From: Brevundimonas diminuta
GTDB lineage: Bacteria > Pseudomonadota > Alphaproteobacteria > Caulobacterales > Caulobacteraceae
Direction of reading: 5' to 3'
DNA: 64,000 bases
Assembly (NCBI RefSeq): GCF_022654015.1
Contig: NZ_CP073063.1
Span: forward strand, 1,736,001 to 1,800,000
In this document: one piece after another, positions 2,043 through 43,511 of the stretch
Numbering within the stretch: the first letter of the stretch is position 1
Layout: every line of letters starts with the position of its first letter
The notes under the pieces: generated by a model
The model's database searches: none
Told to the model about the DNA's origin: nothing
The model's input: the letters and a program-made list of their open reading frames with translations, nothing else
Position numbers and translations under genes: made by a program

Positions 2043-2070
2043 TCAGTGCACATCAAGACAAAGACACTGA
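2043..2070 (+). repeat. Module-boundary palindrome, copy 1
   Basis: Left arm TCAGTGCA and right arm GACACTGA flank a 12-nt spacer containing GACAAA; the right flank extends the palindrome with GCG. It lies between the end of the plus-strand nuclease gene (1910) and the end of the minus-strand UDG-like gene (2136), so it is not promoter-proximal to either. Same orientation as the nine other copies. Confidence 0.85.
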
Positions 2071-2135
2071 GCGAAAAACGTTCTGTCTGTAGATCAAACC
2101 CACCTAATCGGCGGCAGACTCTGTCGGCGGCGGCC

Positions 2136-2804
2136 CTAGAGCACGCGCCGAGCTGTTTCGGCCACGTGGTCGCGTGCGATCGTTCGACCATTTCCGAAAA
2201 TCTTGAATCGGCTGAGGTGCGGCAACGACAGTACGACCTGACCAGCGTTGTTTCGGTAGGTGTCGATTGTCTGCGGCCCCCAGCCTGCGGCGGTCGAGCT
2301 CTCTAACGTCGCGCCGATCAGCTGAGCGATTTCTTCCCCAGCTCGCTTGCCGAGCGACACGAATACGCGTGCCCGCGACTGCGACAGAACCCACCGCCAT
2401 AGCTCTCGGCCAAACGCGAGCGCGCCCCGCCGGTCGGGCAACCGGTCCCAAGACGGGCTCCGAAAAGGCACCAGGTTGGCGGCGAAGACATCGCTCGCCG
2501 ACACACCGAGCGCTTCGAACAAGGACCGCACCTCGACCTGCAGATGGTGCTCGCCAGCTTCGAGACCACGCCAACTCTCATCGACGTAAGCGTTTTCGCC
2601 GTTTTGATAGTCCCACTCATTTGGCGGATCGAGCTGGCTGCCGCCGGGGTTCAAGCCAATCAGAACGACCTTGGCCGACGTCATTCGAGCTGCCGGCACG
2701 TACATGAATGACCATCCCCAACGCTGAGCTGGCGCGATGAGCTGTCTGCGCTCGTACTCAAGTTGAATGCGCTCGGCATCCATCGGCGTCTCCACTCTAG
2801 TCAT
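2136..2804 (-). CDS. Uracil-DNA glycosylase-superfamily-like protein
   Basis: 222 aa. The N-terminal part has VVLIGLNPGGS, which fits motif 1 of the UDG superfamily (GxNPG variants). The C-terminal part has LSLPHLSRFK, in the position of the HPS-type DNA-contact loop, and the spacing between them is right for a single alpha/beta UDG domain. It has no signal peptide, so it is cytoplasmic. The ATG lies 2 bp beyond the stop of the upstream exonuclease gene, so the two genes are cotranscribed leftward. The substrate base cannot be read from sequence. UDG-fold proteins in defence islands may act on modified or uracil-containing phage DNA, but this is an inference and the protein could be catalytically diverged. 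Confidence 0.65.
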   Translation of the reverse strand: MTRVETPMDAERIQLEYERRQLIAPAQRWGWSFMYVPAARMTSAKVVLIGLNPGGSQLDPPNEWDYQNGENAYVDESWRGLEAGEHHLQVEVRSLFEALGVSASDVFAANLVPFRSPSWDRLPDRRGALAFGRELWRWVLSQSRARVFVSLGKRAGEEIAQLIGATLESSTAAGWGPQTIDTYRNNAGQVVLSLPHLSRFKIFGNGRTIARDHVAETARRVL

Positions 2805-2806
2805 GA

Positions 2807-3742
2807 TCAGACCGCGCTCGCCATTCGGTCGAGCAGCTCGGCTTCCGTCAAGATGGCTATGGCCTGTCCATTCGCGATGAGTTCTTCGGCTTTCAGGTGT
2901 TTCGAGCTCTTGAGCTTTCCCGCGAACGTCGATGGCTCCTGAGCGCCCAATACCAACATCGTCGTGCGTCGATTAGGTGACGGCGACACGGCGCCGCCGG
3001 CCGCGGCGATGCGATCGGCCATTTCGCCGCGAGACACCGACAAGTCGCCCGTGATGGTGATGCACTCGCCGGCAAGCACGCCGACACCGGTGCGGTCTCT
3101 CTTGACTGAAGCGCTCGGCACGAGGGACCGTCGATCAAGCTCGCTGAACCAATCGTTGAGCTGAATTCCTGTGTGGTCGATCGCTTTGACAATGACCATG
3201 CCTGCCGCTCGCGCGTCGCTGAGCGCGTCGTGGTGCTTGAGCTCAAGGCCCAAATGCGAGGCGAGAACGTTAAGGCGATGGCTGGGAAGCTCGGGCCAAG
3301 CGCGTCGCGCGACCTTCACGCTGTCGAGCCAGCGCGCTTCGAGGTCCCGCTTGCGATGTAAGGCGCAAGCTACCGATAACGCGCCGCGGTCAAATGCCGA
3401 ATGCGCGACGGTGATGCGCCCGTCGAGATGGCTCGCCAGCGTGTCGTGCAGCGAGCCGAAGTGCGGTTTTCCGCGGACGTGGTGGCGGTCAATGCCGTGA
3501 ATGCCGACGTTAAAGTGGTAAAAGTCGTCGCGGGGATCGACCAACGTCTCGTATTCAAAACTGACAGCGCCCGCCGTAAAGCCTACGACGCCGATCTGGC
3601 AGATGCTGCTGGTGCGAGAGCATGACGTTTCGACGTCGATGACGACGAAATCAGGGGCGGACTGCGCCTGCTCGCGCGTCGTCGCGGCGCGTTGAGATGG
3701 CTCGGAGCGGTTGCCGCCGAGCACGCGATTGATCCAACTCAT
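2807..3742 (-). CDS. DnaQ-like DEDDh 3'-5' exonuclease with C-terminal BRCT domain
   Basis: 311 aa. I start at the ATG at 3742, preceded by GGGGGAAACGAA, rather than the longer upstream reading. Exo I is VIDVETS near residue 36, Exo II includes HSAFDRGAL, and Exo III is HDALSDARAAG, which together give the D-E-D-D-h catalytic set. The last ~90 residues, from GVLAGECITITG onward, resemble a BRCT domain like those in some DnaQ-family and ligase proteins. The protein would degrade or proofread DNA ends, and the BRCT part would target it. It is the first gene of a leftward pair with the UDG-like gene and is divergent from the 3938 gene, so the 195-bp gap should hold promoters for both directions. 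Confidence 0.85.
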   Translation of the reverse strand: MSWINRVLGGNRSEPSQRAATTREQAQSAPDFVVIDVETSCSRTSSICQIGVVGFTAGAVSFEYETLVDPRDDFYHFNVGIHGIDRHHVRGKPHFGSLHDTLASHLDGRITVAHSAFDRGALSVACALHRKRDLEARWLDSVKVARRAWPELPSHRLNVLASHLGLELKHHDALSDARAAGMVIVKAIDHTGIQLNDWFSELDRRSLVPSASVKRDRTGVGVLAGECITITGDLSVSRGEMADRIAAAGGAVSPSPNRRTTMLVLGAQEPSTFAGKLKSSKHLKAEELIANGQAIAILTEAELLDRMASAV

Positions 3743-3937
3743 TTCGTTTCCCCCCAAACCCGAGCAACGCCGCATTTTCTAGCCGCGCTATGTCAAACAC
3801 TGTCGCAAGCCCGACGACCGTCGCAATCAGCAGATGACAGACAAGCGCGATTCAGCGCTTGTGCACATCGCTTGGTTGAAGTTGGAAACTTCTCGATGGC
3901 TGAAGTGAATACGTGTGGCAGCGGGAGAGGGGGCGAG

Positions 3938-4465
3938 ATGCAAGTTTATGACGACTCGGCGATCGACGACGCGTTCGTCGAGGACGCCGGTGCTGTGTTG
4001 GACCCGGATGATCACTACAAACTGCTCGAAGTCGCGAGCGGCCGCACCGCCATACCCACTGAGAGCGATCTCCACTGGACGTCTAGCCAACACTATGTCG
4101 GGCGCTTCTGGGTCGTTCGCCCTCGTCACGGCCAGCCCGAAATCGTGAGTTTTCGCCGGGCCTTTAAGGATGCTGAGCTTCTCGACAACGAGTTTCTCGC
4201 CCTAGACCCCTACATGTCGTTCGACCGTTGCTGGGAAATGTTGGGCGACGACGAGCAGCACCTCACGCCGCATCAGCGTAGCTGCGTTGAAAGCGCGCGA
4301 AGCAACTATTGGCCGCGCGGCTACGTCGAGTACGTGCCTCGTCTTCGAACCTGGTTCATGTCGGTGCCTGCCGAACTTGTAGACGACGAAGCTACGCTGC
4401 TCGCCGTGCGCCAACGGTTCGTGATCGATCCAACATGCTGTCGCGTCGTCGCCACGAGCAACTAA
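3938..4465 (+). CDS. Unrecognised 175-aa cytoplasmic protein
   Basis: I do not recognise this family. I start at the ATG at 3938 because GGGAGAGGGGG lies a few bases upstream; another in-frame ATG at 3896 would add 14 residues. The protein is acidic and rich in Trp and Tyr (HWTSSQHYVGRFWVV, NYWPRGYVEYVPRLRTWF), and has no signal peptide or membrane segment. It is followed 46 bp later by a PD-(D/E)XK gene and then an MBL nuclease gene, and probably belongs to that operon. A role as a recognition or regulatory partner of the nucleases is only a contextual guess. Confidence 0.65.
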   Translation: MQVYDDSAIDDAFVEDAGAVLDPDDHYKLLEVASGRTAIPTESDLHWTSSQHYVGRFWVVRPRHGQPEIVSFRRAFKDAELLDNEFLALDPYMSFDRCWEMLGDDEQHLTPHQRSCVESARSNYWPRGYVEYVPRLRTWFMSVPAELVDDEATLLAVRQRFVIDPTCCRVVATSN

Positions 4466-4511
4466 TGCGCCCGTATTTCAACTTCGTAGCATTAAGACCG
4501 GAACGAGCCGC

Positions 4512-5501
4512 ATGAGTCAGTCGAAGCCAAAACCGTTCGCGCGCGGTCTCTCCGAGGTTCAGATGGCCGGACTCGCGCGTGCGATGGAGTTGCAGCGGCA
4601 CTGGTGGAGGGATCTACTCTATCTGTGGCGGCCAAGCGGTCATGAGACGGGCGACTACGGGCTGAGGCTTGCCGTTCGCGACGGGTATCTGAACTTCTAC
4701 CGAAGGGGGCAGTCGGTCGCGCGCGTTGCGTTCAGCAAGGGTGGTGAGCCGCATCTCTCGGTACACGCCAAATATGTCGTCAGCGACGCTGAGCGCAGCC
4801 TACCGAACCTGCGGTATGCGCGTCTGAAGACGACCGAAATCACGCACGCGAAATCGCCTTCGCGAAATTACGACGGGATCGATTCCCTGAAGGCCTGGAT
4901 CAAGGTGGTCGACGCCCACTTCACTAAAGAGGGTGACGAGAAATCGCTCGTAGATCAGCTGCTAAGCGTTTCCGAAAACAGCGGCGTGATCGATCTCGAG
5001 ATGGCACTGCCGGCATGGGAAGAAAATAAGTCCGCCCCGCGAATGGATCTAGTCGCCATAGAGGGATCCGCAGACGGGCTCGAGCTCGTTTTTGGCGAAG
5101 TCAAAGTCGTTGGAGATCCTCGGGTGCGTTGCTCGGGACAGAACCTGACGGTCAAGCCGGAAGTGATTAAGCAGCTCTCTCAATACCAAGCATATCTAGC
5201 GAAACCGGCGCACCGCGAGGCGATCAGCCAAGCCTATTTGAACACCGCCAAGACGCTTGTTGAACTGAACAAGATGGCAGGCACGCTACGCGCCGCGATG
5301 CCTCTTGGGTCGGCGATAGTGGAGGCGTCGGTGAGCGACCATCTCGCTGTCCCTCAGCATGCCATACTCATCGTGATGAGCTGCGGAGATTTCAGCGAGA
5401 CTCGTTGGGACCTGCATCGGCAGGTACTGAAGGCAGAGGTCGATCTGCGGATGGTCGAGCTGGGAGCACCAGGTCCAATGAACCTCGGAGTTCTTGTTTG
5501 A
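4512..5501 (+). CDS. Predicted PD-(D/E)XK nuclease-like protein
   Basis: 329 aa. The central region carries a glutamate in IDLEMALP, then PRMDLVAI, then LVFGEVKVV, which fits the E...D...ExK pattern of PD-(D/E)XK nucleases (about residues 160-200). The N-terminal ~100 residues form an unrecognised beta-rich region (LWRPSGHETGDYGLRLAV). The stop TGA overlaps the TTG start of the following MBL gene, so the two are translationally coupled. I cannot assign a known restriction family. The presence of another nuclease immediately downstream suggests a joint nucleic-acid-degrading system. Confidence 0.65.
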   Translation: MSQSKPKPFARGLSEVQMAGLARAMELQRHWWRDLLYLWRPSGHETGDYGLRLAVRDGYLNFYRRGQSVARVAFSKGGEPHLSVHAKYVVSDAERSLPNLRYARLKTTEITHAKSPSRNYDGIDSLKAWIKVVDAHFTKEGDEKSLVDQLLSVSENSGVIDLEMALPAWEENKSAPRMDLVAIEGSADGLELVFGEVKVVGDPRVRCSGQNLTVKPEVIKQLSQYQAYLAKPAHREAISQAYLNTAKTLVELNKMAGTLRAAMPLGSAIVEASVSDHLAVPQHAILIVMSCGDFSETRWDLHRQVLKAEVDLRMVELGAPGPMNLGVLV

Positions 5502-6736
5502 CAATTCGTCTCACCGTTCACCGCGCCACCGACCAAATCGGCGGCAACTGCATTGAGCTCTCGACCGACGAGGGACGGATCATTCTCGACGTCGGCCGAC
5601 CGCTCGACGCGCCCAACGATGCGGTTGGCTTGCTACCCGCGACGCTCGATCGCGAGCGACCGCTGGACGGCGTGCTGATCTCTCACCCTCACCAGGATCA
5701 CTACGGTCTGCTCGAGGAGACGCCGGCGCACTGGCCGATTTACAGCGGGGCGGCGACCGAGCGGTTGATGCAGCTGACGGCGGGGATCTTCGGCCAACCG
5801 ATGCAGCGCGACTTTCGGTCGTGGACGACCGGTCAGGCTAATCAGATTGGACCGTTCAAGGTCACGCCGTACCTGACCGACCACTCTGCATTCGACGCGC
5901 ACATGCTGCTGATCGAGGCAGCGGGCAAGCGGGTGCTCTACTCAGGGGATTTCCGAACACACGGTCGCAAGTCGAAGCTGGTCGAGCGTCTTATGGCGTC
6001 GCCGCCAGCGGATCTCGACGTGCTGCTGATGGAGGGGACCAACCTCGGCAGCGACAAACCATGCATGACCGAGTCCGATCTCGAAGACGACTACGTCGCT
6101 CTGTTTCGTGCGACCAAGGGGAGAGTGTTTGTCGCGTGGTCGGCACAAAACATCGACCGCACGGTAACGCTCTATCGCGCGTGCCTGAAGACCAAGCGCA
6201 CGCTGGTGATCGATCTCTATACGGCTGAAGTGCTCGATGCGTTGGCGGCGCATGGGCGACTACCGCAACCGGATTGGGCGTCGATCAAGGTCGTGATCAC
6301 CAGTGCGTTCTCGCGTCTGTACAAGCGCAAGGGCGACGAGGCGTTCGTGACGCGCATGGCGGCCAACGGGATCTCGGCCAAGGCTCTGGCGCAGTCGCCC
6401 GAGAAATGGGTGATCATGACGCGACCGTCGCTCATCAAAGACTACGAAGCGGCAGGCGTCACGCCGACGGCTGACGAGGCGTGGAGCTACGCGATGTGGC
6501 GCGGCTATCTCAAGAACGAGGATGGCCAACGGCTGCAAAACTGGTTCGACCAGGGCGGTGCGACCGCCAAGCATCTGCACACCAGTGGTCATGCGTCACC
6601 GTCTGATTTGCGGGCATTCGCCAACGCGATGAAACCGAAGACGATGGTGCCGATACACGGGGTGGCGTGGGACACCGACGCGAAGGGGTTTCCCCCGATC
6701 ACGCGACTGGTCGACGGTCAACCGCTCGAGCTGTGA
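5498..6736 (+). CDS. MBL-fold beta-CASP (RNase J-like) nuclease
   Basis: 412 aa from a TTG at 5498 that overlaps the TGA of the previous gene. This start places the beta-lactamase fold right at the N-terminus. The metal motif is SHPHQDHYG (HxHxDH, about residues 62-70), followed by DHSAFDAHM, then YSGDFRTHG with the bridging Asp. The C-terminus has HTSGHASPSDL and MVPIHG, the beta-CASP/RMMBL signature seen in RNase J-like enzymes. The expected activity is metal-dependent RNA or DNA cleavage. It is much shorter than housekeeping RNase J (~550 aa), lacking the extra C-terminal domain. It is the last gene of the module; repeat copy 2 starts 16 bp after its stop. Confidence 0.85.
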   Translation: MTIRLTVHRATDQIGGNCIELSTDEGRIILDVGRPLDAPNDAVGLLPATLDRERPLDGVLISHPHQDHYGLLEETPAHWPIYSGAATERLMQLTAGIFGQPMQRDFRSWTTGQANQIGPFKVTPYLTDHSAFDAHMLLIEAAGKRVLYSGDFRTHGRKSKLVERLMASPPADLDVLLMEGTNLGSDKPCMTESDLEDDYVALFRATKGRVFVAWSAQNIDRTVTLYRACLKTKRTLVIDLYTAEVLDALAAHGRLPQPDWASIKVVITSAFSRLYKRKGDEAFVTRMAANGISAKALAQSPEKWVIMTRPSLIKDYEAAGVTPTADEAWSYAMWRGYLKNEDGQRLQNWFDQGGATAKHLHTSGHASPSDLRAFANAMKPKTMVPIHGVAWDTDAKGFPPITRLVDGQPLEL

Positions 6737-6752
6737 GCGCCGAAACCAGCGC

Positions 6753-6780
6753 TCAGGGTACATTCAGTCAAACGCACTCG
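6753..6780 (+). repeat. Module-boundary palindrome, copy 2
   Basis: TCAGGGTA variant of the left arm, preceded by CGC; right arm CGCACTCG is diverged. The spacer contains GTCAAA. It starts 16 bp after the stop of the beta-CASP gene and ends ~90 bp before the next module. Confidence 0.75.
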
Positions 6781-6869
6781 ACCGCAGCGCAACGATACGT
6801 CCGATTCTGACGTATCTCTGATTTAGAGTGCGACCGTCGCTTGGCGACCGAGCAGGGGGATATAAGGGT

Positions 6870-7673
6870 ATGTTCGATGATCATGAAGCGCTGACGCGCG
6901 CGCGAAATGCCTATGCGTACGCGCCGCTGCGGCTCGTTCGCTCCGAAATTGCAGGCGCTCAGGCGGCTCTCTGGGACATGCCGGTCCAGTTCGCAGGGCC
7001 GCTCGAGTGCCAGGCGTCGGCGTTCGCCTCGTGGCCGTCGTGGGACCTGGATCAGCACCACGCTGGGCTGTTGCGATCGCAGAATGATGATGACGTGCTG
7101 CTTGGCGTGGCGTCTGTCACCTTCTGGGGGTTTGCGCAGGGGAGGGGCGGTCGGCTCACGACCGCGCGGGCGCTCGCCCGTGCAAAAAACATCGCTGGTC
7201 TCGGCCAGCGTAAGGCCGACGAGGCGAGCACCATCGTCGAAAAAGTGCGCATCTTCTCAGCTCATCTCGACCGAGGAGACCGACAGGCGGCCATCAACGA
7301 GGCGATGTCGCTGCAGCATCATGGTTTAGCGTTTGCTTCGAAATTGCTCGCGTTCGCGTCTCCTGAGACGGCGTGCGTCTACGACGAGGTGATCTCGCTG
7401 CGTCTCGGCGCTTCGGACGACAACCGGCTAAGGGCCCTGCATGTCTCCACTGCCGGCAAGCATAGGCTCGCCGAAAAAGCGTCGGCCTATGCAGGGTGGG
7501 CTCAACTCTGCGCTTCCAAAGCGAGCGATCTCAATCGAGACGGGCGCCTCTGGCTGGATTGGGATGGTTCAGAACGCAGCTGGCGCGCGGTCGACGTTGA
7601 GCGTGCGTACTTTGGACTTGGACGCCCCTCAGCACCATCGGGCGAACTTACAGTCGCCGAGCGACGCGCATGA
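6870..7673 (+). CDS. OGG-fold (HhH-type) DNA glycosylase-like protein
   Basis: 267 aa from the ATG at 6870 (purine-rich AGGGGGATATAAGGG upstream); a GTG at 6828 is an alternative. The segment HHGLAFASKLLAFASPE followed by VYDEVISLRL, and later YAGWAQLC and WRAVDVERAYFGL, resemble proteins annotated as 8-oxoguanine-DNA-glycosylase-fold, in which a helical HhH region is followed by a catalytic region. I see no clear GPD loop, so enzymatic activity is uncertain. Its stop overlaps the next ATG (ATGA), so it is coupled to the 291-aa gene and lies upstream of McrBC. It may recognise DNA for the module. Confidence 0.5.
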   Translation: MFDDHEALTRARNAYAYAPLRLVRSEIAGAQAALWDMPVQFAGPLECQASAFASWPSWDLDQHHAGLLRSQNDDDVLLGVASVTFWGFAQGRGGRLTTARALARAKNIAGLGQRKADEASTIVEKVRIFSAHLDRGDRQAAINEAMSLQHHGLAFASKLLAFASPETACVYDEVISLRLGASDDNRLRALHVSTAGKHRLAEKASAYAGWAQLCASKASDLNRDGRLWLDWDGSERSWRAVDVERAYFGLGRPSAPSGELTVAERRA

Positions 7674-8545
7674 AGACCGACACGTTCGAACTGAAAAGCG
7701 GGTGTTGGTACGGATGGATCGAGGTGCCAGCGCATGCGTCTCGTTGGCCGGTAGGGCCGATTCTTCTAATTGAGATCAAGCCACTGAAGACCGGGAACGG
7801 CTTACTTGAGCTGACGCTCATCAAACCTGTCAACCCCGGCGGTGCCGTCCGAACCAACCTGGTTTTGCAGGTGATGCAACGTGAAGCTGACCACCTTGTC
7901 GCGCGCTGGTCGACCAACGGCCAATCGGTGGCGGTCGTGATCTGCGAGGTCACGCTTGATTGGATGGGGAGCTACTGCGGTGAACACCTGCGCCGCAGAC
8001 CGGTCCAAGGGCCCCAACTTATCATCGAAGACCAAGCTCCGGTGGAGCAAAGCGCGGAAGAGCATTTTATGCGCGTATTCGGCGCTTCGCCTGAGGCCGT
8101 CCTGGCGGGGGCGACACCCACGAGTTTCCCTGCCAACGAGCCGACGTTGCCGTCGCAGTGTGAGAACTTCGACCTAAACCGCACTTACGACGAGCTAGAT
8201 TCCTGGTTCATCGGGCGGGGGTTCACACCGACTGCGATGGAAGAGAAATGGTTCATCTATCTCGCCGAAGGGGTGCTTACGTTTCGACGGAGTTGGACTG
8301 GCATTGTGATTTATGAAGTGGAAGCGGAGTGGCGAGGCGCGCAGCTTAGGCTCAGCCGAGCGAGGGTGAACCGCGATCCATCGCAGTACGGCGAAACGGA
8401 CACGGCATTCGATCACCACCTGCTGCTCTACATCATCGACGTCGTGCTGCTCGGCAAAGAAGCGATCTTCCCGACTAAGCCAGCCCTGGAGCCGGATGGA
8501 TCTGCGCTGCAGGCGTGGTCGATCGTCGGCAAAGCGTCGCTCTAA
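7670..8545 (+). CDS. Unrecognised 291-aa protein coupled to the glycosylase-like gene
   Basis: The start ATG overlaps the previous stop as ATGA. The C-terminal half has EEKWFIY and FRRSWTG, a pattern I have seen in small hypothetical proteins of defence loci but cannot tie to a fold. The N-terminal half is beta-rich with no catalytic motif that I can see. There is no signal peptide or membrane segment. The tight coupling to the OGG-like gene suggests a two-protein complex. A 186-bp gap separates it from McrB, so McrBC may have its own promoter. Confidence 0.6.
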   Translation: MKTDTFELKSGCWYGWIEVPAHASRWPVGPILLIEIKPLKTGNGLLELTLIKPVNPGGAVRTNLVLQVMQREADHLVARWSTNGQSVAVVICEVTLDWMGSYCGEHLRRRPVQGPQLIIEDQAPVEQSAEEHFMRVFGASPEAVLAGATPTSFPANEPTLPSQCENFDLNRTYDELDSWFIGRGFTPTAMEEKWFIYLAEGVLTFRRSWTGIVIYEVEAEWRGAQLRLSRARVNRDPSQYGETDTAFDHHLLLYIIDVVLLGKEAIFPTKPALEPDGSALQAWSIVGKASL

Positions 8546-8731
8546 TGATGCTCGATCGTTCAGCCGAGAGGGCCCACGGTGCCGGCCTTGGCGCATACCA
8601 TGAGAAGCTCAACACCTTTGTGAGCGCAGTTCCGCCCAGTATGGGCAGTGGACCTCCGGCGTTACGAGCCGTTGGACCCATTCTAAGCTCACGTTCGAAT
8701 CGCATTCAGACCGTAGGTTAAGGGGGCACAT

Positions 8732-10873: not shown

Positions 10874-10883
10874 TTGCACCCCC

Positions 10884-12149: not shown

Positions 12150-12263
12150 ACCTAGTAGGAAGCTCCGCTTTGCAGCAGCGTGTGCCGGTCCCGATTCGGC
12201 TCGCTACCGAGGTGCCCGTGTGCGCCTTCGTGCCGAAGGGGTGGGCGCTTGAGAGAGGTGAGT

Positions 12264-13151: not shown

Positions 13152-13178
13152 TAGTGCACATCTAGACAATCGCACTGA
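13151..13178 (+). repeat. Module-boundary palindrome, copy 3
   Basis: Left arm ATAGTGCA, right arm CGCACTGA, spacer containing GACAAT. Its first base is the last base of the HNH gene stop codon. Confidence 0.85.
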
Positions 13179-13202
13179 GAGGTCACCTGGCCCAGCCCAT
13201 CG

Positions 13203-13251
13203 TTGGAACGCACTGTCTGTTTTGGAAAGAGAAGCAGACAGAGCGTTCCAA
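13203..13251. terminator. Long hairpin between convergent genes
   Basis: TTGGAACGC-A-CTGTCTG on the left pairs with CAGACAG-A-GCGTTCCAA on the right, giving a long stem with a single mismatch and a short purine-rich loop. It sits between the convergent ends of the HNH gene and the minus-strand secreted gene. A bidirectional terminator is the simplest reading; there is no clear T-run on the plus strand, so a small mobile or structural element is possible. Confidence 0.5.
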
Positions 13252-33165: not shown

Positions 33166-33287
33166 GACTGAATCGGGGCGACCAACCTTAAGACCTAGGG
33201 TCGCTGACGAGTTGCTAAAAGATGGGCTCGACCCGGACATCAGCGTGAAAAGCACACCGCGATATCCGGCGTGCAGGGGGGACGTAA

Positions 33288-33779: not shown

Positions 33780-33916
33780 TGGCCTAAAGCACGCTCGTGG
33801 CGGACGCGTCTGGAGCACGAAGGCTATTCCCTGGTTCCGGAGGCGTCTCGCCAGCATCTTTACAATTGGCTTGGCGGCCGCGGTCGTCGCGCTGCTGAAG
33901 CCCGCGCAAGTCAGCC

Positions 33917-34132
33917 ATGACGGATCCCACCGAGGCGATTTCATCGCCGTCCACCGATCAGAGGGCAGGCGCGTTTTGGGGACGAGTCTTCGGCGTCACC
34001 GACGGCGATACGATCAAAGTCTTTGTCGACGGGACGCGGTCGGCGACGATCAGACCCGCGGAAATCGATGCGATGGAGCGGCGAAAAAGAGGCATCCCGG
34101 TCGCTCAGGGTAGATCGGGAAGAACACACTGA
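33917..34132 (+). pseudogene. Truncated thermonuclease (SNase-like) remnant
   Basis: A 71-codon reading contains GRVFGVTDGDTIKVF and IRPAEIDAMERR, the start of a staphylococcal-nuclease-like domain (DGDT and IDA motifs), but the other ~80 residues of the domain with the catalytic Arg/Glu are missing. Its TGA is the final three bases of repeat copy 6, so the coding sequence runs into the repeat and stops there. In another frame just upstream, LASIFTIGLAAAVVALL looks like the original signal segment, so the remnant also appears frameshifted. This is not a working enzyme. Confidence 0.65.
34105..34132 (+). repeat. Module-boundary palindrome, copy 6
   Basis: Flanked by CGC and GCG, giving perfect outer arms CGCTCAG and CTGAGCG; inner left arm GGTA, inner right CACA. 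It forms the 3' end of the truncated SNase reading. Confidence 0.85.
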
Positions 34133-35394: not shown

Positions 35395-35419
35395 TTAGCG
35401 GTTTGGCGCGTCTTGACCA

Positions 35420-36964
35420 ATGACGGAAGAGCAGGCTCCAACCGGTTTAATCTCGGGGGCATCAGTGGCTACGCTTACGCAGTCGGAACTTGAACGGCAT
35501 CTCTGGCAAGCGGCGGACATCCTGCGGGGCCACGTCGATGCGGGGAAGTTCAAGGACTACATCTTCGCCCTGCTGTTCTACCGGCGCCTCTGCGACGTGT
35601 GGGACGAAGAGTTCGCGGTTCTGCTGGCCGAGACCGGCGACCGGGAAGAGGCGGCCGATCCTGATGAGCACCGCTTCCACGTTCCGCCGCAGCATCACTG
35701 GAATGCGGTCAGGAAGCACGCCACCCAGATCGGCCAGCATCTGAACAACGCCTTCGCCGCCATCGAAGACGCCAACCTGCGTCTGCGCGGCGTCTTCGGC
35801 GATGTGGACTTCGCCAATCAGGAACGCTTCCCTGATGCGCGGCTGGAGAAGCTGCTCGCCCACTTCGAGAAGCACCGGCTGCGGAACAGCGACGTGCCGC
35901 CCGACATGCTGGGCGACGCCTACATGTATCTGATCGAGCAGTTCGCCGAGGGCGCGGGGAAAAAAGGCGGCGAGTTCTACACGCCTCGGCAGGTCGTAAA
36001 GCTGATCGTCGAATGCCTCGATCCCCAGCCGGGAATGTCGATCTACGACCCTACCTGCGGTTCGGGCGGCATGCTGTTGGAGGCGGCCCAGCACCTGAAG
36101 GGCAGGGGCCAAGACCCGCGCAGCCTGTCCCTCTACGGGCAGGAGAAGGAACTGGACACTTGGGCCATCGCCCAGATCAACCTGTTCCTCCACGACATCG
36201 ACGACGCCTTCATCGCCAAGGGCGACACAATCCTCGATCCAAAGCGATACGATCCGCGCGCGCATGAGTTCACGCCCGGCATCGGCGCCTATGACCGGGT
36301 GCTGGCCAATCCGCCCTTCTCACAAAAGGTCTGGGGTCACGAGGTCTGGACCAACGGCGATCCGTTCGGCCGCGACGTCTATGGCGTGCCGCCCAAGGGC
36401 TATGGCGATCTCGCCTTCGTCCAGCACATGGTCGCCTCGCTGAACGACGCCGGCATGCTTGGTGTGGTCGTGCCGCACGGCGTGCTGTTCCGGGGCGGCG
36501 CCGAGGGCCGTATCCGCGAGGCGATGCTGAAGGCCGACGTCATCGAGGCGGCGATCGGACTGGCACCCAACCTGTTCTATGGCGCGGGCATTCCGGCGGC
36601 GATCCTGATTATCCGCAAGGTCAAGTCCGCCGAGAGGAAGGGCAAGGTCTTGGTCGTCAACGGCGACGCCACCTTCACGCCGGGCAAAGCGCAGAACCAT
36701 CTCACCGAAGCCAACGTGCGGACTCTGGCCGACGCCTTCCATGGCTTCACCGACATCGAGAAGCTGGCGCGCGTCGTGCCGGTCGGTGAGATCGAAACCA
36801 ACGGCTTCAACCTGAACATCAGCCGCTACGTTCAGACCGGTGCGGACAGCGAGGCGGTGGATGTCGCCGCCGAGGTCGCCAAGCTCACAGACCTGATCGC
36901 CAAGCGCGATGAGGCCGAAGCAGTGATGCTCGGCCACCTAAAGAGGCTCGGCTATGTCGGGTGA
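35420..36964 (+). CDS. hsdM: Type I restriction-modification DNA methyltransferase subunit HsdM
   Basis: 514 aa. The N-terminal helical domain (LERHLWQAADILRGHVDAG) is typical of HsdM. The SAM-binding region has FYTPRQVV near 186 and DPTCGSGGM near 210, and the catalytic motif IV NPPF is near 297, indicating an N6-adenine methyltransferase. HsdM works with HsdS to methylate the recognition site. Codons are visibly richer in GC3 than in flanking modules. It overlaps hsdS by 11 bp. Confidence 0.96.
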   Translation: MTEEQAPTGLISGASVATLTQSELERHLWQAADILRGHVDAGKFKDYIFALLFYRRLCDVWDEEFAVLLAETGDREEAADPDEHRFHVPPQHHWNAVRKHATQIGQHLNNAFAAIEDANLRLRGVFGDVDFANQERFPDARLEKLLAHFEKHRLRNSDVPPDMLGDAYMYLIEQFAEGAGKKGGEFYTPRQVVKLIVECLDPQPGMSIYDPTCGSGGMLLEAAQHLKGRGQDPRSLSLYGQEKELDTWAIAQINLFLHDIDDAFIAKGDTILDPKRYDPRAHEFTPGIGAYDRVLANPPFSQKVWGHEVWTNGDPFGRDVYGVPPKGYGDLAFVQHMVASLNDAGMLGVVVPHGVLFRGGAEGRIREAMLKADVIEAAIGLAPNLFYGAGIPAAILIIRKVKSAERKGKVLVVNGDATFTPGKAQNHLTEANVRTLADAFHGFTDIEKLARVVPVGEIETNGFNLNISRYVQTGADSEAVDVAAEVAKLTDLIAKRDEAEAVMLGHLKRLGYVG

Positions 36965-38165
36965 GACGCCGGAGGGTTGGCGCGTCGCCAAACTCGGAGA
37001 GATAGCCGTTTTGTCTGGAGGGACTACGCCGCCGAAGTCCAACAACGCCTACTGGATGCAAGGCGATGTTCCTTGGGCGACTCCATCGGACATCACTTCG
37101 TTGCCGCTCGGACAGGCTCGCATTGCCGCCACTGAAGCGCATGTCGCCGAGCTTGCGCTGAAGGAGTGTTCGCTCAAGCTCAACCCGACCGGCACTGTGC
37201 TTATGACATCTCGTGCGACCATCGGCTTCGCTGTGATCAACGATGTGCCAATGGCGACAAATCAGGGTTTCCTGAACTTCACCTGTTTCGACGACTGCGA
37301 CCCACGGTTCTTGTGCCACTGGCTCAACGCCAACCGGGGGCTGCTAACGGCGGCAGCAGGTGGGAGCACCTTCAAGGAGTTGAGCAGAGGCACGGCAAAG
37401 CTTTTGCCCATTTCCCTCCCTACGCTCGACGAGCAGCGGAAGATCGCAGAGGTGTTGCGGTCGGCAGATGACGCCATCGCGGCCGCTTCTGAAGCTGCTC
37501 GACAAGCCGCGCGCACGTTCGACAGTGTGATTGCCTCGGTGCTTGGCCCGTATGCGGCCGCATCGGGTGCGCCAAATGCAGAGACGGCTCCGCTTGCGGA
37601 CTTTTGCCAGCGGGTAACCTACGGGTTCACCAATCCGATGCCCACAACGGACAACGGCCCGTGGATGGTCACTGCCTTAAACGTTAAGAACGGCAAGATC
37701 GACTACGCAACAGCGCGACACACGAGCGCATCAGCCTATGACGCGCTCACGGAAAAGAGTCGGCCTCCTATCGGCGCGGTGTTGGTAACGAAGGATGGCA
37801 CCCTTGGGCGGGTCGCTGTTGTTGATCAGCCAGACGTCTGCGTGAACCAATCGGTGGCCGTCTTGGAGCCTCGCAAAGGGGTCTTGAACCCGCTGTTCTT
37901 GAGCTACCTTCTCCAGTCCGAGATTGGACAGACTCGGATGCTAGCCGACTCTGGCGGCGGCAGCGTCAAACACATCTACATCACCAAGCTCGGGGCCATG
38001 CCGGTTTCTGTGCCGTCATTTGCGGAGCAGACAAAAATAGCTGATCAGGTGGCAAAATGTTCAGCGGCCGTTGAGTTGGCTGAACAGTCCCTTCGCCAAC
38101 TCCGTCAGCTTCGCATCTCCACTGCTGACGACCTCCTAACCGGCCGTGTGAGGGTGCCCGCATGA
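36954..38165 (+). CDS. hsdS: Type I restriction specificity subunit HsdS
   Basis: 403 aa. It has two target recognition domains: one beginning EGWRVAKLGEIAVLSGGTTP and the second near residue 215 (LADFCQRVTYGFTNPMP). Each ends in a conserved helix with LDEQRKIAEVL and FAEQTKIADQV. It defines the bipartite DNA target. The TRDs have codon use less GC3-biased than hsdM and hsdR, consistent with shuffling of specificity domains. The stop overlaps hsdR by 4 bp. Confidence 0.95.
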   Translation: MSGETPEGWRVAKLGEIAVLSGGTTPPKSNNAYWMQGDVPWATPSDITSLPLGQARIAATEAHVAELALKECSLKLNPTGTVLMTSRATIGFAVINDVPMATNQGFLNFTCFDDCDPRFLCHWLNANRGLLTAAAGGSTFKELSRGTAKLLPISLPTLDEQRKIAEVLRSADDAIAAASEAARQAARTFDSVIASVLGPYAAASGAPNAETAPLADFCQRVTYGFTNPMPTTDNGPWMVTALNVKNGKIDYATARHTSASAYDALTEKSRPPIGAVLVTKDGTLGRVAVVDQPDVCVNQSVAVLEPRKGVLNPLFLSYLLQSEIGQTRMLADSGGGSVKHIYITKLGAMPVSVPSFAEQTKIADQVAKCSAAVELAEQSLRQLRQLRISTADDLLTGRVRVPA

Positions 38166-41100
38166 GCGAATACCGCCTCGCCGAGAAGCCCGCGCTCGAT
38201 GCCATGACGGCCATGGGCTACGTCGCGCTTCATGACGACGCGGCGATGGTGATGCGGCAGGAGGCAAACCGCGTCCTGCTGAAGCCGGTGCTGATCGAGG
38301 CCCTTCAGGCTCTGAACGAAGGAATGGGCGGCGAGGACGCCGAGGCGATCTACAGCGACCTTTCTACCTTGTCCGACAACGAGGAATGGCAGCGTCGTCT
38401 GCGCGGCGCCTACTCCCGGCGGCTGAAGGGCGAGGCCAAGGACAGGCCGGTCGCGCTGATCGACTTCAAGCGGCCCGATAGAAACCGCTACCACGTCGTG
38501 CGCCAGTTCAAGGTTGAAGCGCAGCGGTCGCGCATCGCCGATCTGGTGGTGTTCGTGAACGGCATTCCGCTGGTCGTGATCGAGGCAAAATGCCCGCTGA
38601 AGGCGGCGGATCGTTCGGGTCAGGCGTTCGAGCAGATCAAGCAGTATGAGCGCGACATCCCGCGCTTGTTCTACCCCAACGCCTTTAACATCGTCACGGA
38701 TGGTATGGCGACTCTATATGGTGCGGCCGGCGCCCCAGCGAAGTTCTACGCCCCTTGGCCCGACCCGTGGCCGCGCACGCGCAACGAGTTCGCCGACGAA
38801 CTGACCAAAGACCTGTGGTGTCTGCTGGAGCCGTCGCGACTGCTGGACCTACTGGCTCATTTCATCCTCTTCGAGAGCGACCCTGACACCAGGCGGCGGA
38901 TCAAGAAGGTCTGTCGCTATCAGCAGTTCGGGGCGGTCAACAAGGCGGTGAACCGCGTCGCCGAGGGGACCAAGAAGAAGGGTCTGATCTGGCATACCCA
39001 AGGTTCGGGCAAGAGCCTGACGATGGTGTTCCTCGCCCTGAAGCTGAAGACCCACCTGACGCTGGATGCGCCGACGCTCCAGAATCCCAACATCCTCGTC
39101 CTGACCGACCGCATCGACTTGGACGATCAGATATCCAAGACCTTCGTCGCCTGTGGTCTGCCCAATCCGAAACAGGCGGCAGACGTGAAGGCGTTGCGCG
39201 AGGCTGTGGCGCGCGGTGGCTCTGGCCAAATCCTGCTCTCGACCATCTTCAAGTTCCAAGGATCGAAAGAGCCAATCCCGAATTCGGAGGATTGGATAGT
39301 GCTGGTGGACGAGTGCCATCGCACGCAGGAGAAAGACCTCGGCGCCTTCCTACAGGCAACACTGCCCGACGCTCGCTACTTCGGCTTCACCGGCACGCCC
39401 ATCAAGAAAGCCGACAAGGACACCTATGCCCGGTTCAGCGAGCCGGGTGAGACATACTTGGACAAATACGGGATCGACGACGCCGTGCGCGACGGCGCGA
39501 CCGTGCCGATCCTCTACGAAGGCCGGAAGACCGAATGGTCGATCAACGAGGCCGAGATCGACATCCTATTCGACCGCTGGTTCGTCGATCTGTCCGATGA
39601 GAAGCGCGAGAAGCTGAAGCAGAAGGGTGTCAGCCTCGCGCTGATCGCCAAGCACCCGGAGCGCATCCGGCTGATCGCGCGAGACATCTGGGAGCACTTC
39701 AAACAGACCTGTCGCCCGGACGGGTTCAAGGCCCAGATCGTCGCCATCGACCGTGAGTCAGTCGTGCTCTACCGGCTGGCATTAGCCGAGGTGATAGCCG
39801 CCGATCTGGTGAGGGATGGCATGGCCGAGGCAGACGCGGCGGCCAAGGCCGAGCGGATGATCAAGTGCGTCCTCTCCAAGAGCCAAGAGGACGACAAGCC
39901 GAGCGAAGACCCGGAAGTCCAAGCCGTCCGCGCAGAACTGGTTGCCCATTACCTCGACGCGGACGGAGAGAAGACAGCCAAGAAGGCGTTCAAGGGCAGC
40001 GGCGATGAGCCGAGCTTCCTGATTGTCTGCGACAAGCTGCTGACTGGCTTCGATGCGCCGAACGAGCACGTCATGTATCTGGATAAGCCTCTGCGTGAGC
40101 ACGGGCTGCTTCAGGCCATCGCGCGGACCAATCGGACCTGCTCGATCAAGAGACCGGACGGCTCGACTGTCGATAAGCCGCACGGCCGGATCGTGGACTA
40201 CATCGGCGTCACCCAGCACCTCGACGACGCCCTATCTTCCTACCGCGCCGACGATGTTCAGAACGCGCTGCGCGACCTCGACCTGCTGCGTCGTGACCTG
40301 CGGAAGACCCACGCCGAGTTCAAGCGTCAGCTTCGGCTGCTGGGCCTCGACGGCATGGACGAGAAGGCGGCCGCCTACGCCATAGAGAAGCTGGTGAGCG
40401 ATGGCCGTGAAGACGACTGGTTCGAGCTTCAGCGGCTAGGGCGCCACTTCGTGCGGACCTATGGCGACCTGTCGCCCGACCCGGCCATCCTCGACTTCAC
40501 CGAGGACGTGAAGTGGGCCGCGACCTTCCTGCGGCTGGCGCAACAAGCGATCACCAAGGACCAGAGCCTCGATCACCTGACCTACTCGGGCAAGATCAGG
40601 GAAATGCTGGAGGAGCATGTTCGCGCCACCGGCCTGACCACGACCGTCCGCCTCCGCAACATCACCGATCCCGACTTCAAGGATGACTTCCAGACCGAGG
40701 AGAAATCCGAGGAGGAGCTTCACGAGGCGTTCGTGCGCAAGGCCGCCGAACTGAAGCGCGTGACCCGCGAACTGGTCGATAAGAACCCGGCCCAATACGG
40801 CCGCTTCTCCGAGCGCGTGCTGGAGATCATCCGTCGCTTCGAGGAAGGCCAGATCGCCGCCGCCGATGGCCTGAAGGATTTCGAAGACCTGACCGGCGGC
40901 ATCGCCGCCGAGGCGAGTGCCCATGACGAACTGGGTATGGACGAACGCGCCTTCGCGATCCTGCGGATCATCGAGCCGCATGCGCCGGATGCGGAGCATA
41001 CGGTGCTTCAGGGCGTCGCAGTTAAGGTTGGCCATCTTTACGCCGGGACGCAGGCCAGCCAGCCGTCGTGGTTTTTCATGGATGGCTATAAAAAGGAGCT

Positions 41101-41209
41101 ACGACGCGAGGTCCGCAAACTGCTGCGTCCGCTCGAACTGGATGACGCCAATGCCGTCCGTGACGAGATCGAGGACTACGCCGTCCACGCTTACGCCGAG
41201 GGTCATTGA
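38162..41209 (+). CDS. hsdR: Type I restriction endonuclease and translocase subunit HsdR
   Basis: 1015 aa, normal length. The PD-(D/E)XK nuclease is at RIADLVVFVNG followed by LVVIEAKCP (ExK near residue 140). The SF2 helicase motor has motif I TQGSGKSLTM near 279, motif II VDECHR near 382, motif III FTGTPIK, and motif VI near 650 (QAIARTNRT). The C-terminal region (from ~850) is the helical HsdMS-binding part. Double-strand cleavage follows ATP-driven translocation on unmethylated DNA. The stop TGA overlaps the next ATG. Confidence 0.96.
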   Translation: MSEYRLAEKPALDAMTAMGYVALHDDAAMVMRQEANRVLLKPVLIEALQALNEGMGGEDAEAIYSDLSTLSDNEEWQRRLRGAYSRRLKGEAKDRPVALIDFKRPDRNRYHVVRQFKVEAQRSRIADLVVFVNGIPLVVIEAKCPLKAADRSGQAFEQIKQYERDIPRLFYPNAFNIVTDGMATLYGAAGAPAKFYAPWPDPWPRTRNEFADELTKDLWCLLEPSRLLDLLAHFILFESDPDTRRRIKKVCRYQQFGAVNKAVNRVAEGTKKKGLIWHTQGSGKSLTMVFLALKLKTHLTLDAPTLQNPNILVLTDRIDLDDQISKTFVACGLPNPKQAADVKALREAVARGGSGQILLSTIFKFQGSKEPIPNSEDWIVLVDECHRTQEKDLGAFLQATLPDARYFGFTGTPIKKADKDTYARFSEPGETYLDKYGIDDAVRDGATVPILYEGRKTEWSINEAEIDILFDRWFVDLSDEKREKLKQKGVSLALIAKHPERIRLIARDIWEHFKQTCRPDGFKAQIVAIDRESVVLYRLALAEVIAADLVRDGMAEADAAAKAERMIKCVLSKSQEDDKPSEDPEVQAVRAELVAHYLDADGEKTAKKAFKGSGDEPSFLIVCDKLLTGFDAPNEHVMYLDKPLREHGLLQAIARTNRTCSIKRPDGSTVDKPHGRIVDYIGVTQHLDDALSSYRADDVQNALRDLDLLRRDLRKTHAEFKRQLRLLGLDGMDEKAAAYAIEKLVSDGREDDWFELQRLGRHFVRTYGDLSPDPAILDFTEDVKWAATFLRLAQQAITKDQSLDHLTYSGKIREMLEEHVRATGLTTTVRLRNITDPDFKDDFQTEEKSEEELHEAFVRKAAELKRVTRELVDKNPAQYGRFSERVLEIIRRFEEGQIAAADGLKDFEDLTGGIAAEASAHDELGMDERAFAILRIIEPHAPDAEHTVLQGVAVKVGHLYAGTQASQPSWFFMDGYKKELRREVRKLLRPLELDDANAVRDEIEDYAVHAYAEGH

Positions 41210-41967
41210 TGGGCGTCGTCCGCATCGGTCAGACCGAAGTCCCCTACGAGCTTCGTCGATCCGCCGCCGCCTCTGAACGGCGGATCACGGTCACGCCCGG
41301 CCACGTCGAAGTGCTGGCCCTGACGACCGACGACGACGCCGAGATCGACGCCTTCCTCGACCGCAAACGGCAGTGGCTGTTCAACACCCTGCGAGAGCTT
41401 GAGACCAAGACATCGAAGCGCGCGGTTGTGCCCGTGTTCATGACCGGTTCCAAGATTCCCTATCGCGGACGGATGGCTCGGCTGACCGTGCGCCGACACG
41501 ACGGCGCGCACATCGAGATCGACTACCGCAACGGCTTTCTGGTCGATCTTCCATCATGGGTCCGCGAAGCGGATCAGGACGCCATCGTCGCCACCGAGAT
41601 CAAGCTGTGGCTGAAGCGTCGCGTGCGTCGGGACGTCATGGACATCGCCGCTGCCTATCACCGCCGGTTCGATTTGAAGCCGCGCACGATCCGCGTCGCA
41701 GACATGAAGACCGGCTGGGGCGCCTGTGGCCCGACCGGCTCCGTCCTGATCAACTGGACCCTCGTGTTCGCGCCGAAGGCGGTGCTGGAATACGTAGTCG
41801 CCCATGAACTGGCGCACCTGACCGTGCGCTCACACGGCCCCGACTTCTGGGCGCACATGGCGACGCTGATGCCTGACTATGATCGCCCGAAGGGTTGGCT
41901 CGACAGGCATCAGGGGGCGTTGGATGCGTCGTTCTTGAACACCGGTCCAACGCTCAGTGCAGATTGA
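41209..41967 (+). CDS. YgjP-like (DUF45) zinc metallopeptidase-domain protein
   Basis: 252 aa, ATG overlapping the hsdR stop. The catalytic motif is VVAHELAHLTVRSHGPDFW (HExxH plus third His), with WGACGPTGSVLINWTLVF just before, as in YgjP/SprT-like proteins. It is frequently found at the end of type I restriction operons; its role there is unknown, possibly proteolytic control of HsdR. The last five codons and the TGA stop lie inside repeat copy 9, so the natural C-terminus may have been altered by the junction. Confidence 0.9.
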   Translation: MGVVRIGQTEVPYELRRSAAASERRITVTPGHVEVLALTTDDDAEIDAFLDRKRQWLFNTLRELETKTSKRAVVPVFMTGSKIPYRGRMARLTVRRHDGAHIEIDYRNGFLVDLPSWVREADQDAIVATEIKLWLKRRVRRDVMDIAAAYHRRFDLKPRTIRVADMKTGWGACGPTGSVLINWTLVFAPKAVLEYVVAHELAHLTVRSHGPDFWAHMATLMPDYDRPKGWLDRHQGALDASFLNTGPTLSAD

Positions 41968-41981
41968 GACAAATGCACTGA
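41954..41981 (+). repeat. Module-boundary palindrome, copy 9 (best arms)
   Basis: Arms are perfect: TCAGTGCA and TGCACTGA with a 12-nt spacer containing GACAAA; preceded by CGC. The stop codon of the YgjP-like gene (41965-41967) lies inside it. Confidence 0.92.
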
Positions 41982-42054
41982 CCGTGACGCAGCCAACCCG
42001 CCGCTGAGGCAGACACCCCTGCGGCGGATATCGCTCAGTCTATCGTAGGAGAAT

Positions 42055-42672
42055 TCAACACCATGGCAGCGGTGTTGTGACTCCGGCGGCATTGCTCCAA
42101 TGATCATCTATGCGCTCTTTAGCGCGCTTAATGCGGCGCGTCAGTTTGCTGATAGCAACATTGAATGGAATGAGCGCCTCTACCGCCGTCGGTGCAGCAC
42201 ACGCGTAGCGGATGGAGAGATGCAGCAACGCGTATACCGTCCATTCCGAGACGATGCCATGCTTCTCGCGCCAGTCATCGACTAATTTCGTCAACTCGCG
42301 GACTTGAGCCGGCAGCGGCCCATAGGTGCGCTCGATTTCATCGTTCAACATGGCGCGGATTGCCTCGTATTCGTCAGTCCAATGTTTTTCCTGCCCATGC
42401 GCGTCAGCGGAAACTGCTACCGCGTGCCTTAAAGTCTTCACCAAACTGCTGGAGAGATCGAGTAAGTCATCCTTCGCGTTATGCCGCATGCGGTTCGGAT
42501 GCTTTCTGGGTTTGCGCTCAACGTGTAGCCTTTCAATCGTTGCCCTATTGCCTCCCTTTGTTGAGCCCTTCTTGGCTTTGAAGTTGATCGTAGGGCTGGC
42601 TCGGACTTGGTCTGGGGTCGAGTGGATAGTGGCGCGAGGTGGAAGTTTCGGCGGCTTGGTTGTGCGTGTCAT
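42055..42672 (-). CDS. Hypothetical protein with basic N-terminus (205 aa)
   Basis: The first ~65 residues are very basic and probably disordered (KAKKGSTKGGNRATIERLHV). The rest is helical (DLLDLSSSLVKTLRHAV, IERTYGPLPAQVRELTKLVD). No signal, membrane segment or catalytic motif is visible. It lies 58 bp downstream of a second minus-strand gene with a similar layout (basic disordered N-terminus, then a short folded part), so the two are likely a pair. Unknown function. Confidence 0.6.
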   Translation of the reverse strand: MTRTTKPPKLPPRATIHSTPDQVRASPTINFKAKKGSTKGGNRATIERLHVERKPRKHPNRMRHNAKDDLLDLSSSLVKTLRHAVAVSADAHGQEKHWTDEYEAIRAMLNDEIERTYGPLPAQVRELTKLVDDWREKHGIVSEWTVYALLHLSIRYACAAPTAVEALIPFNVAISKLTRRIKRAKERIDDHWSNAAGVTTPLPWC

Positions 42673-42730
42673 GATGCGTCTTTCGGCTTATTAATATGGT
42701 TGTCGTGGCTGCCCGGGGCTGTTGACTGGG

Positions 42731-43153
42731 TTACTCAACGGCAAACGACGAGAGATCAGTGCCGAAAGATCGCGGCTGCGATTTCTGGGCCGATTTCGTC
42801 GAAAGCCGGAGGGATTTTCGCCAGGTGGTGTTCTGCAGTTCGTAGATTGCCTCGATTGGAGGTTCACCAAGGCGGGTAATCGCATGATCGATTGCTCGGT
42901 AAGCAACAGAGACGATTGGAGCCCACCCTTCGTCACCTCCTATTTTTGCGATGTCAGACCTAACGTCGAAGAAACCGCCAAGGGAGTCTCGCGCTTCCAT
43001 CAATATGTAGAGGGCTCGTGCCTCAGACTTTTCTGTTTCGTGCGTCAATGTCGTAGTTGCTCCTGCTAGACGAGCACGGCCAGATTCTGGGCGTGACTCA
43101 TCGCTTGTTGAAAGTGGCTGGGAGCGCGGCGGTCGGCTTTTGCCTGTCTTCAT
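42731..43153 (-). CDS. Hypothetical protein with basic N-terminus (140 aa)
   Basis: I start at the ATG at 43153; a GTG at 43222 would add 23 residues of low-complexity sequence. The N-terminus is rich in Lys, Arg, Pro and Ser. The folded part (ARALYILMEARDSLGGFFDV, WAPIVSVAYRAIDHAITRLG) is helical. No motif is recognised. It is the upstream gene of the minus-strand pair; the AT-rich region to its right probably holds the promoter. Confidence 0.55.
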   Translation of the reverse strand: MKTGKSRPPRSQPLSTSDESRPESGRARLAGATTTLTHETEKSEARALYILMEARDSLGGFFDVRSDIAKIGGDEGWAPIVSVAYRAIDHAITRLGEPPIEAIYELQNTTWRKSLRLSTKSAQKSQPRSFGTDLSSFAVE

Positions 43154-43483
43154 TTTCCGAGGATTAGCCTTCCCCGGATTGGCCGCCGATGGTTTCCCCA
43201 AAGGGGAGAGGGCGGCCCTCACGCTGAGAGCAAGTTCACCCTGAGAGGTGTCTCAGTCAACGAATTACAGCAGCACTATGCGAGAAATTTGCGTAGTTTG
43301 AATAAAATTGCCTCAGCTAATACAGTATTCCAGGTCCGTCAGATTTTATAGGGGCGCATATCTACTAGGTAGAAATGTTTGCTCCGCAGGTTCCGGGTGT
43401 GATGTATATCTTAGCTATCCTAATGCGAAAATTATACGTTAGGTGTCAGAAGTATAAGCGCGATTCAATTGATGGCGCCGCTC

Positions 43484-43511
43484 TTAGTGCACATTAAGAG
43501 AAATGCACTGA
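43484..43511 (+). repeat. Module-boundary palindrome, copy 10 (last)
   Basis: Left arm TTAGTGCA, right arm TGCACTGA, spacer containing GAGAAA. It is the last copy in the window, at the presumed right end of the island. Confidence 0.88.

Follow-up and report, generated by a model that had tools for sequence, protein, structure and literature searches.

A series of 28-bp sites with ordered spacers, probably serving site-specific recombination, divides a tRNA-integrated island of Brevundimonas diminuta into slots

Here we analyzed a stretch of 64,000 nucleotides of the Brevundimonas diminuta genome (contig NZ_CP073063.1, positions 1736001-1800000; hereafter the window), in which restriction, stress and other gene modules are separated by short palindromic sites of 28 bp (Table 1). 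The genome, a single contig of 3.21 Mb, is called G000, and the other G-numbered genomes are species representatives. All ten sites listed by the first-pass annotation were confirmed at their positions, every one on the plus strand; nine are strong and one (35370) is decayed. A weight matrix made from the ten sites scored them first, with 23.6-40.4 bits against 15.0 for the best of five shuffled windows, a ranking that is circular because the matrix was trained on the same sites. Five of them differ from one consensus at three positions at most, for which 100 dinucleotide shuffles give an expectation of 0. The arms of site 35370 have decayed (<15 bits in a refined matrix) and the spacer CCGGA expected at its place is retained. 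The earlier remark that six of the ten start at or just past a plus-strand stop codon also held, sites 6753, 13151, 22445, 34105, 34510 and 41954 starting at -13 to +18 bp relative to the stop; the open reading frame ending near site 34105 is only 80 amino acids long.

A sequence-model search of the whole genome gave 18 matches, all in one orientation and all in one stretch of about 110 kb (1717212-1827024), and the array (sites at 1717217-1826995) begins 18.8 kb upstream of the window and ends 27 kb downstream of it. The clustering in a single island that was expected of cassette junctions is therefore seen. The 41-kb extent first given is too small, as the sites run on past both sides of the window, in an island of about 122 kb. 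The model search scores only the best first-look candidates (16 places with fewer scored), and weak copies may be missed. With the refined matrix at a threshold of at least 18 bits, 19 sites were found in the G000 region, the decayed one excluded, and 94 over all fetched loci (1.25 Mb); one shuffle of the same 1.25 Mb gave a single match at 15 bits or more.

The array lies inside an integrated tRNA island, because a tyrosine integrase gene (1833385-1834500) adjoins a tRNA-Lys gene (1834509-1834584) and a direct repeat of the tRNA-Lys 3′ end is present at the far side (1712644-1712693, 84% identity over 50 bp). The corresponding repeats of G482 and G324 are 100% identical over 50 and 51 bp. Neither end of the island falls within the window: the left one is 23.4 kb upstream of it and the right one 34.6 kb downstream. 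The island contains three tyrosine recombinase genes. In G324 and G482 the island is also at tRNA-Lys and has a size of 89 kb and 80 kb, respectively, and the genes outside it in G000 (1700252-1712556 and 1834743-1849265) encode proteins that are 92-100% identical in these two genomes. The G017 array likewise ends at tRNA-Lys, with no tRNA-end direct repeat in the fetched stretch, and the conserved genes that border the G000 island are also present on contig C37 of G031. The G012 array ends near tRNA-Ser; its integrase is different (31% identity) and its candidate repeat is only 15 bp. Overall, sites were found in 17 of 131 genomes of the genus, eight of which have one model match only (these include G270 and G388, each a single contig), and one model match came from another family (G056). 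The orientation is the same throughout the arrays of G000 (19/19), G324 (17/17), G482 (14/14) and G012 (16/16). An exact-pattern scan of a viral contig collection gave 0 sites, and comparison of window positions 1-20000 with plasmids gave a single near-match of 73 bp.

Table 1. Sites and modules in the window (window coordinates; genome coordinates follow genome names).
Feature	Position	Strand	Remark
Site, spacer CAAGAC	2043..2070	+	
Module: UDG-fold and RNase_T exonuclease genes (-), unknown genes and metallo-beta-lactamase (MBL)-fold protein (+)	2071..6752		
Site, spacer TCAGTC	6753..6780	+	Left neighbour and spacer common to G012 1536767
Module: McrBC type IV restriction, OGG-like and DUF4357-like proteins	6781..13150	+	AAA_5, McrC by Pfam
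Site, spacer CTAGAC	13151..13178	+	
Module: four tested genes without Pfam family	13179..19292	+	Partly similar (73-74%) to G012 module
Site, spacer TCGGAA	19293..19320	+	Same address in G324 and G012, flanks unrelated
Site, spacer GTGGAG	22445..22472	+	Left neighbour common to own genome 1723726 and G324 2347215
Module: TerD, TerC/DUF475, trypsin-TerD, DUF4236, StiP-PELOTA stress genes	22473..34104	.	
Site, spacer CGGGAA	34105..34132	+	
Site, spacer CTGGAA	34510..34537	+	Right neighbour common to G324 2330399
Decayed site, spacer CCGGAA	35370..35397	+	Place expected from G324, G482, G012
Module: type I restriction-modification HsdM, HsdS, HsdR	35398..41953	+	
Site, spacer TGAGAC	41954..41981	+	G324 right neighbour 98% identical, left unrelated
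Site, spacer TAAGAG	43484..43511	+	
Window part of the filling of slot TAAGA-TGCGA: cytochrome bd oxidase, TauE, MBL-fold, YkuD, DsbD	43512..64000	.	

Column counts over the 94 sites gave the consensus TCAGTGYASAT, spacer YNRGAM, AAAYGCACTGA, and on the basis of conservation and of the junctions described below the site reads as an 11-bp arm, a 6-bp spacer and a second 11-bp arm. The two arms mirror each other over their outer eight bases but not over the inner three, and it is this difference that gives the site a direction. Positions 12-14 are the most variable, while G15 and A16 are mostly retained. There is no T run in the consensus, and the familiar GTTRRRY core of attC/attI-type sites is absent from the column counts of the 94 sites. 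Three variant sites with outer arms of the ATAGTG type were observed on contig C83 of G241, a genome of another genus of the same family, and such altered arms suggest that arms and recombinase co-vary.

For tests of uniqueness and order the spacer type was taken as positions 12-16. Within one genome the same spacer was found in 2 of 564 pairs and in 0 of 78 neighbouring pairs, and between genomes in 127 of 3807. The order of common spacers was measured as the longest common subsequence and set against 5000 shuffles. All 12 spacers common to G324 and G482 are in order (0/5000 shuffles), as are all seven of G482 and G012 (0/5000) and all seven of G324 and G012 (1/5000); G000 keeps 13 of 14 in order with G324 (0/5000), nine of ten with G482 (0/5000) and six of seven with G012 (35/5000). 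This order is kept while the surroundings change, as among the 127 pairs with equal spacers from different genomes homology is absent from both flanks in 98, limited to one flank in 24 and present in both in 5, a flank being counted as non-homologous below 60% identity over 45 bp. Between G482 and G012, whose arrays lie at different tRNA genes, 0 of seven common sites have a homologous flank. The spacer may therefore be seen as an ordered address, with modules that would be swapped slot by slot and not added freely, a feature missed by the first-pass annotation. In G000 the addresses GTGGA and CGGGA each occur twice (genome 1723726-1770105), which might reflect the duplication of a block through unequal exchange.

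The place of the junctions was analyzed by comparing the flanks of every pair among the 94 sites. In pairs with only the left flank homologous (n=11) positions 1-14 agree almost throughout, 12-14 in 11 of 11, and agreement then drifts away rightward. Pairs with only the right flank homologous (n=13) often differ at positions 1, 2, 7, 8 and 9, and from position 10 onward they are for the most part equal, as in site 41954 and its G324 counterpart, which are identical from that position; all of positions 12-14 are equal in 9 of the 13. In unrelated site pairs the agreement at positions 12, 13 and 14 is 35, 25 and 30%. The pairs are partly dependent and correspond to roughly seven left-only events, all of which keep positions 12-14, and eight right-only events, of which six keep them. 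A crossover on one side of the spacer would cost one class of pairs its spacer; both classes mostly keep it, hence recombining sites appear to be usually spacer-matched and modules to be exchanged mostly at such sites. Of 74 ends of homology blocks, 30 are no more than 10 bp away from a site (1000 shifted controls: mean 0.68, maximum 13), and together with the slot comparison across species this bears out the expectation that module differences between species break at the sites.

The filling of the slots is in many cases unrelated. Slot TAAGA-TGCGA of G000 is occupied by a 30-kb segment with genes for cytochrome bd oxidase, sulfur and redox functions, and it is closed on the right by a site at genome position 1809673, 9.7 kb beyond the window; in G324 the same slot holds an unrelated 24-kb block with type II secretion and TonB receptor genes, and G482 has this same block. 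The 11 slots compared between G324 and G482 were found to be fully covered in four cases, without homology in six and partly common in one. The covered slots, with best identities of 99-100%, are TAAGA-TGCGA (24 kb), TACCA-CTTGA, CTTGA-GAAGA and GTAGA-CCAGA. Homology was undetected in CGGGA-CTGGA, CTGGA-CCGGA, CCGGA-TGAGA, TGAGA-TAAGA, TGCGA-TACCA and GAAGA-CACGA, and the partly common slot, CACGA-GTAGA, has a partly related stretch also between G482 and G012. Defence systems are among the cargo. PADLOC recognises 3 of 10 submitted window proteins, with only a weak REase_II match in the McrBC module, and 8 of 10 G012 proteins, some weakly; the latter genome has a Druantia III pair in slot 1561510-1571275, a Mokosh-like gene in the next slot, and type I methyltransferase and specificity genes in slot 1550316-1555427. 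Only 2 of 10 large proteins from G324 and G482 were matched, thus the cargo is not wholly recognised defence. On contig C20 of G260 (8838-10681) a 47% relative of the serine recombinase that stands at the head of the G000 array (see below) was observed as cargo between two sites.

In our interpretation of these comparisons the sites are probably core sites of a tyrosine-type site-specific recombination, which divides the tRNA-integrated island into ordered slots. The earlier suggestion of cassette-like recombination junctions is supported by the clustering, by the breakpoints at sites and by the recombinase genes at the island ends. Each site would consist of two predicted 11-bp recombinase-binding arms around the 6-bp spacer, and recombination would need matching spacers, so that two islands in one cell would exchange only the block between a matching pair of addresses. 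A first crossover would give a cointegrate and a second one would resolve it, by which a module or a run of modules would be swapped. Since the addresses hardly repeat within an island, deletion and inversion would be rare and the order would persist.

A recombinase near an island end and outside the window had been anticipated, and recombinase genes are in fact present at both ends. The candidate for the enzyme is a small tyrosine recombinase called TYR1831 (1831842-1832426, minus strand, 194 amino acids), located 32 kb beyond the window together with a DUF3768 partner (1831273-1831605). It matches PF00589 (E 5.5e-16), its catalytic R, K, HxxR, H and Y are common to 9 of 9 homologues, and the nearest solved structures are XerC-like 4a8e (best) and XerD 1a0p. 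TYR1831 is placed 2.6-6.6 kb beyond the last site in five array islands (G000, G324, G482, G012 and G017). In the genus it was found in nine of 131 genomes, six of them with sites (Fisher p 1.3e-4), and in G241 a relative of 70% identity, truncated where the contig ends, occurs with DUF3768 about 120 bp from a variant site. We put forward TYR1831 only tentatively, with somewhat less than even confidence, as the enzyme acting on the sites; otherwise host XerCD or another recombinase would do so. A TYR1831 relative is also present with DUF3768 on three Paracoccus plasmids and alone on a Bradyrhizobium plasmid. On the P. marcusii plasmid pCP157_06 (L303:12618-13606) the TYR1831-like gene and DUF3768 lie a few genes from a DUF262/helicase/methylase cluster which resembles a defence system.

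Several observations weigh against recombination at addressed sites or against TYR1831 as its enzyme. Neither the reaction nor an excision or cointegrate product was observed in this comparative analysis. The other nine order comparisons, with the short arrays of G449 and G397, were not significant; TACCA is out of order in G000, where two addresses are duplicated; and one site in G017 is inverted. The spacer rule does not hold for four of the 13 right-only pairs. Three of these involve G319a:149 (positions 12 and 13), whose similarity in the flank might come from no more than a short motif, and the fourth is G260 versus G436, differing at positions 14 and 15. The first site of G482 compared with G000 and G324, a left-only case, matches only to position 14. 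Block ends are away from sites, inside modules or beyond the array, in 44 of 74 cases, as is expected from fragmented alignments or mosaic modules, and some may be real exceptions. Regarding the enzyme, 11 of the 17 site-bearing genomes of the genus are without TYR1831, and three of the nine TYR1831 genomes, all of which three carry the pair with DUF3768, are without detectable sites (best score 12.3 bits, in G104). The scanned stretches of the four plasmids with TYR1831 relatives show no convincing sites.

The sites could also be short anchors for RecA-dependent or illegitimate exchange of modules between related islands. Plain sequence matching would favour matched spacers too, and on this point the junction data do not separate it from a recombinase, and homologous exchange via flanking modules can mask later swaps. 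Nevertheless the arms of the dyad are conserved despite many different spacers and unrelated neighbours, which argues for recognition by a protein, and the breakpoints are confined to a short window within the 28-bp site; we regard anchors of this kind as rather unlikely. Still far less probable is that the sites are terminators, REP-like or boundary elements at gene ends, an alternative which the first-pass annotation had left standing. The stop codons overlapped or followed by six of ten sites would agree with such a role, but all 18 model matches lie in one island and not scattered at unrelated operon ends, the search, at its given sensitivity, gave no match in the rest of the genome, the consensus is without a T run, and the spacer order stays conserved while arms and flanks are recombined around it.

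As to the enzyme, a serine recombinase with two ParB/RepB-like partners might act in an integron-like manner with the first site as its attachment site. These genes, which code for the serine recombinase, a ParB_N-RepB protein and RepB and occupy genome positions 1713666-1716993 (19-22 kb upstream of the window), stand directly before the first site, at about 220-235 bp, in G000, G324, G482 and G031, and sites are present in all four genus genomes whose serine recombinase has an identity of about 85% or higher (Fisher p 2e-4). However, serine recombinases generally need only a 2-bp overlap, and positions 12-14 are kept in most junctions, which is more than such an overlap would preserve. Arrays without the trio also exist: G012 (13 model matches) and G449 (six) have no match to its recombinase at E <=1e-90, G012 none even at 1e-10. 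Nine fetched genus trio loci at 59-79% identity have no sites, and a de novo palindrome search beside trios, which recovers the known arrays of G000, G324 and G012, revealed no other array in 11 genomes. The trio was therefore rejected as first-choice enzyme by the spacer rule and the trio-less arrays, and we hold its action on the sites to be improbable. Relatives of its recombinase are encoded in at least 584 genome stretches, mostly of Alphaproteobacteria among the 80 matches listed, and in G000, G031 and G005 the trio is followed by roughly 110 bp of conserved noncoding sequence. A variant of tyrosine-type recombination with another enzyme is that the sites are substrates of the host XerC/XerD, in the way that Acinetobacter dif modules are. 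It would account for the arrays without TYR1831, and the 28-bp 11-6-11 layout and the rule of spacer identity are those described in the excerpts of PMC13141974; on the other hand the two arms here share their outer eight bases and bear no resemblance to the XerC and XerD motifs printed there. A general dif consensus has no match with up to three mismatches in the whole genome of G000 and none in the fetched regions of G000, G324, G482 and G012. The involvement of host XerCD is, on balance, unlikely, though less so than that of the serine recombinase.

A second small tyrosine recombinase (1805610-1806182) was also rejected as the enzyme, since it is found in genomes without a model match (G015, G023 and G036) and has a distant 95% copy at 1995106; with its relatives scattered in the genus it looks like its own mobile element.

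Integron cassette arrays consist of many cassettes split by sites of one orientation, with or without a recombinase at one end. The Brevundimonas arrays are similar in these points, and differ by the lack of an attC-like core, by large multigene modules and by a slot order fixed by spacers. The genes at the head of the G000 array, where integrons have the IntI integrase, are the serine recombinase trio. In engineered recombinase-mediated cassette exchange with heterospecific sites, the block between two spacers swaps with a block flanked in the same way; the swap proposed here would be alike, but natural and with many addresses in series. The integrase beside tRNA-Lys and the 50-bp tRNA-end repeat are those of tRNA-integrated islands, whose interior is here divided into addressed slots. 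Most similar are the dif modules of Acinetobacter, for which excerpts of PMC13141974 describe 28-bp XerCD sites, rearrangement between identical or near-identical spacers, and a cointegrate as the explanation for single modules being replaced between matching spacers; multi-module chromosomal dif islands are reported in PMC12907356. Sites of 28 bp with inverted arms in an 11-6-11 layout between accessory modules are common to both (dif/pdif), and recombination here also appears from sequence comparison to be spacer-matched, with four exceptions. In contrast, the arms TCAGTGYASAT and AAAYGCACTGA differ from the XerC/XerD motifs printed in the same excerpts (TTATGTTAAAT type), the four complete Brevundimonas arrays point one way where the Acinetobacter sites alternate (C and D modules), and the array is located in a tRNA-integrated island with its own three tyrosine recombinase genes. 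A conserved, species-wide order of spacers was not encountered for Acinetobacter dif modules in the excerpts of PMC13141974 and PMC12907356. By this analogy the Brevundimonas arrays may work like Acinetobacter dif modules without being members of them, having other arms and no alternation. What appears new is a fixed series of near-unique addresses, kept across species and integration places while the cargo is exchanged; no account of such an ordered address code was found in the open-licence literature searched, an absence which is weak evidence. A term search of the Pseudomonas modular-hotspot paper PMC12629846 likewise gave no match.

An open question is by what means whole systems enter defence islands, or take the place of others there, with clean boundaries; these arrays offer a concrete and testable mechanism for it, with junctions legible near nucleotide level and with a prediction of which modules fit which slot. 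The near-unique spacers suggest an array that is exchangeable between cells yet stable inside one. With even confidence, we propose that a dedicated small tyrosine recombinase and fixed, near-unique 6-bp addresses form a natural assembly line resembling Golden Gate cloning, in which slot-wise swaps of whole defence and stress modules would take place across species and no order or DNA would be lost. The addressed sites may serve as a handle for new defence modules, namely any DNA between two addresses, and if the enzyme is confirmed, these heterospecific sites would provide a ready-made tool for multi-slot cassette exchange.

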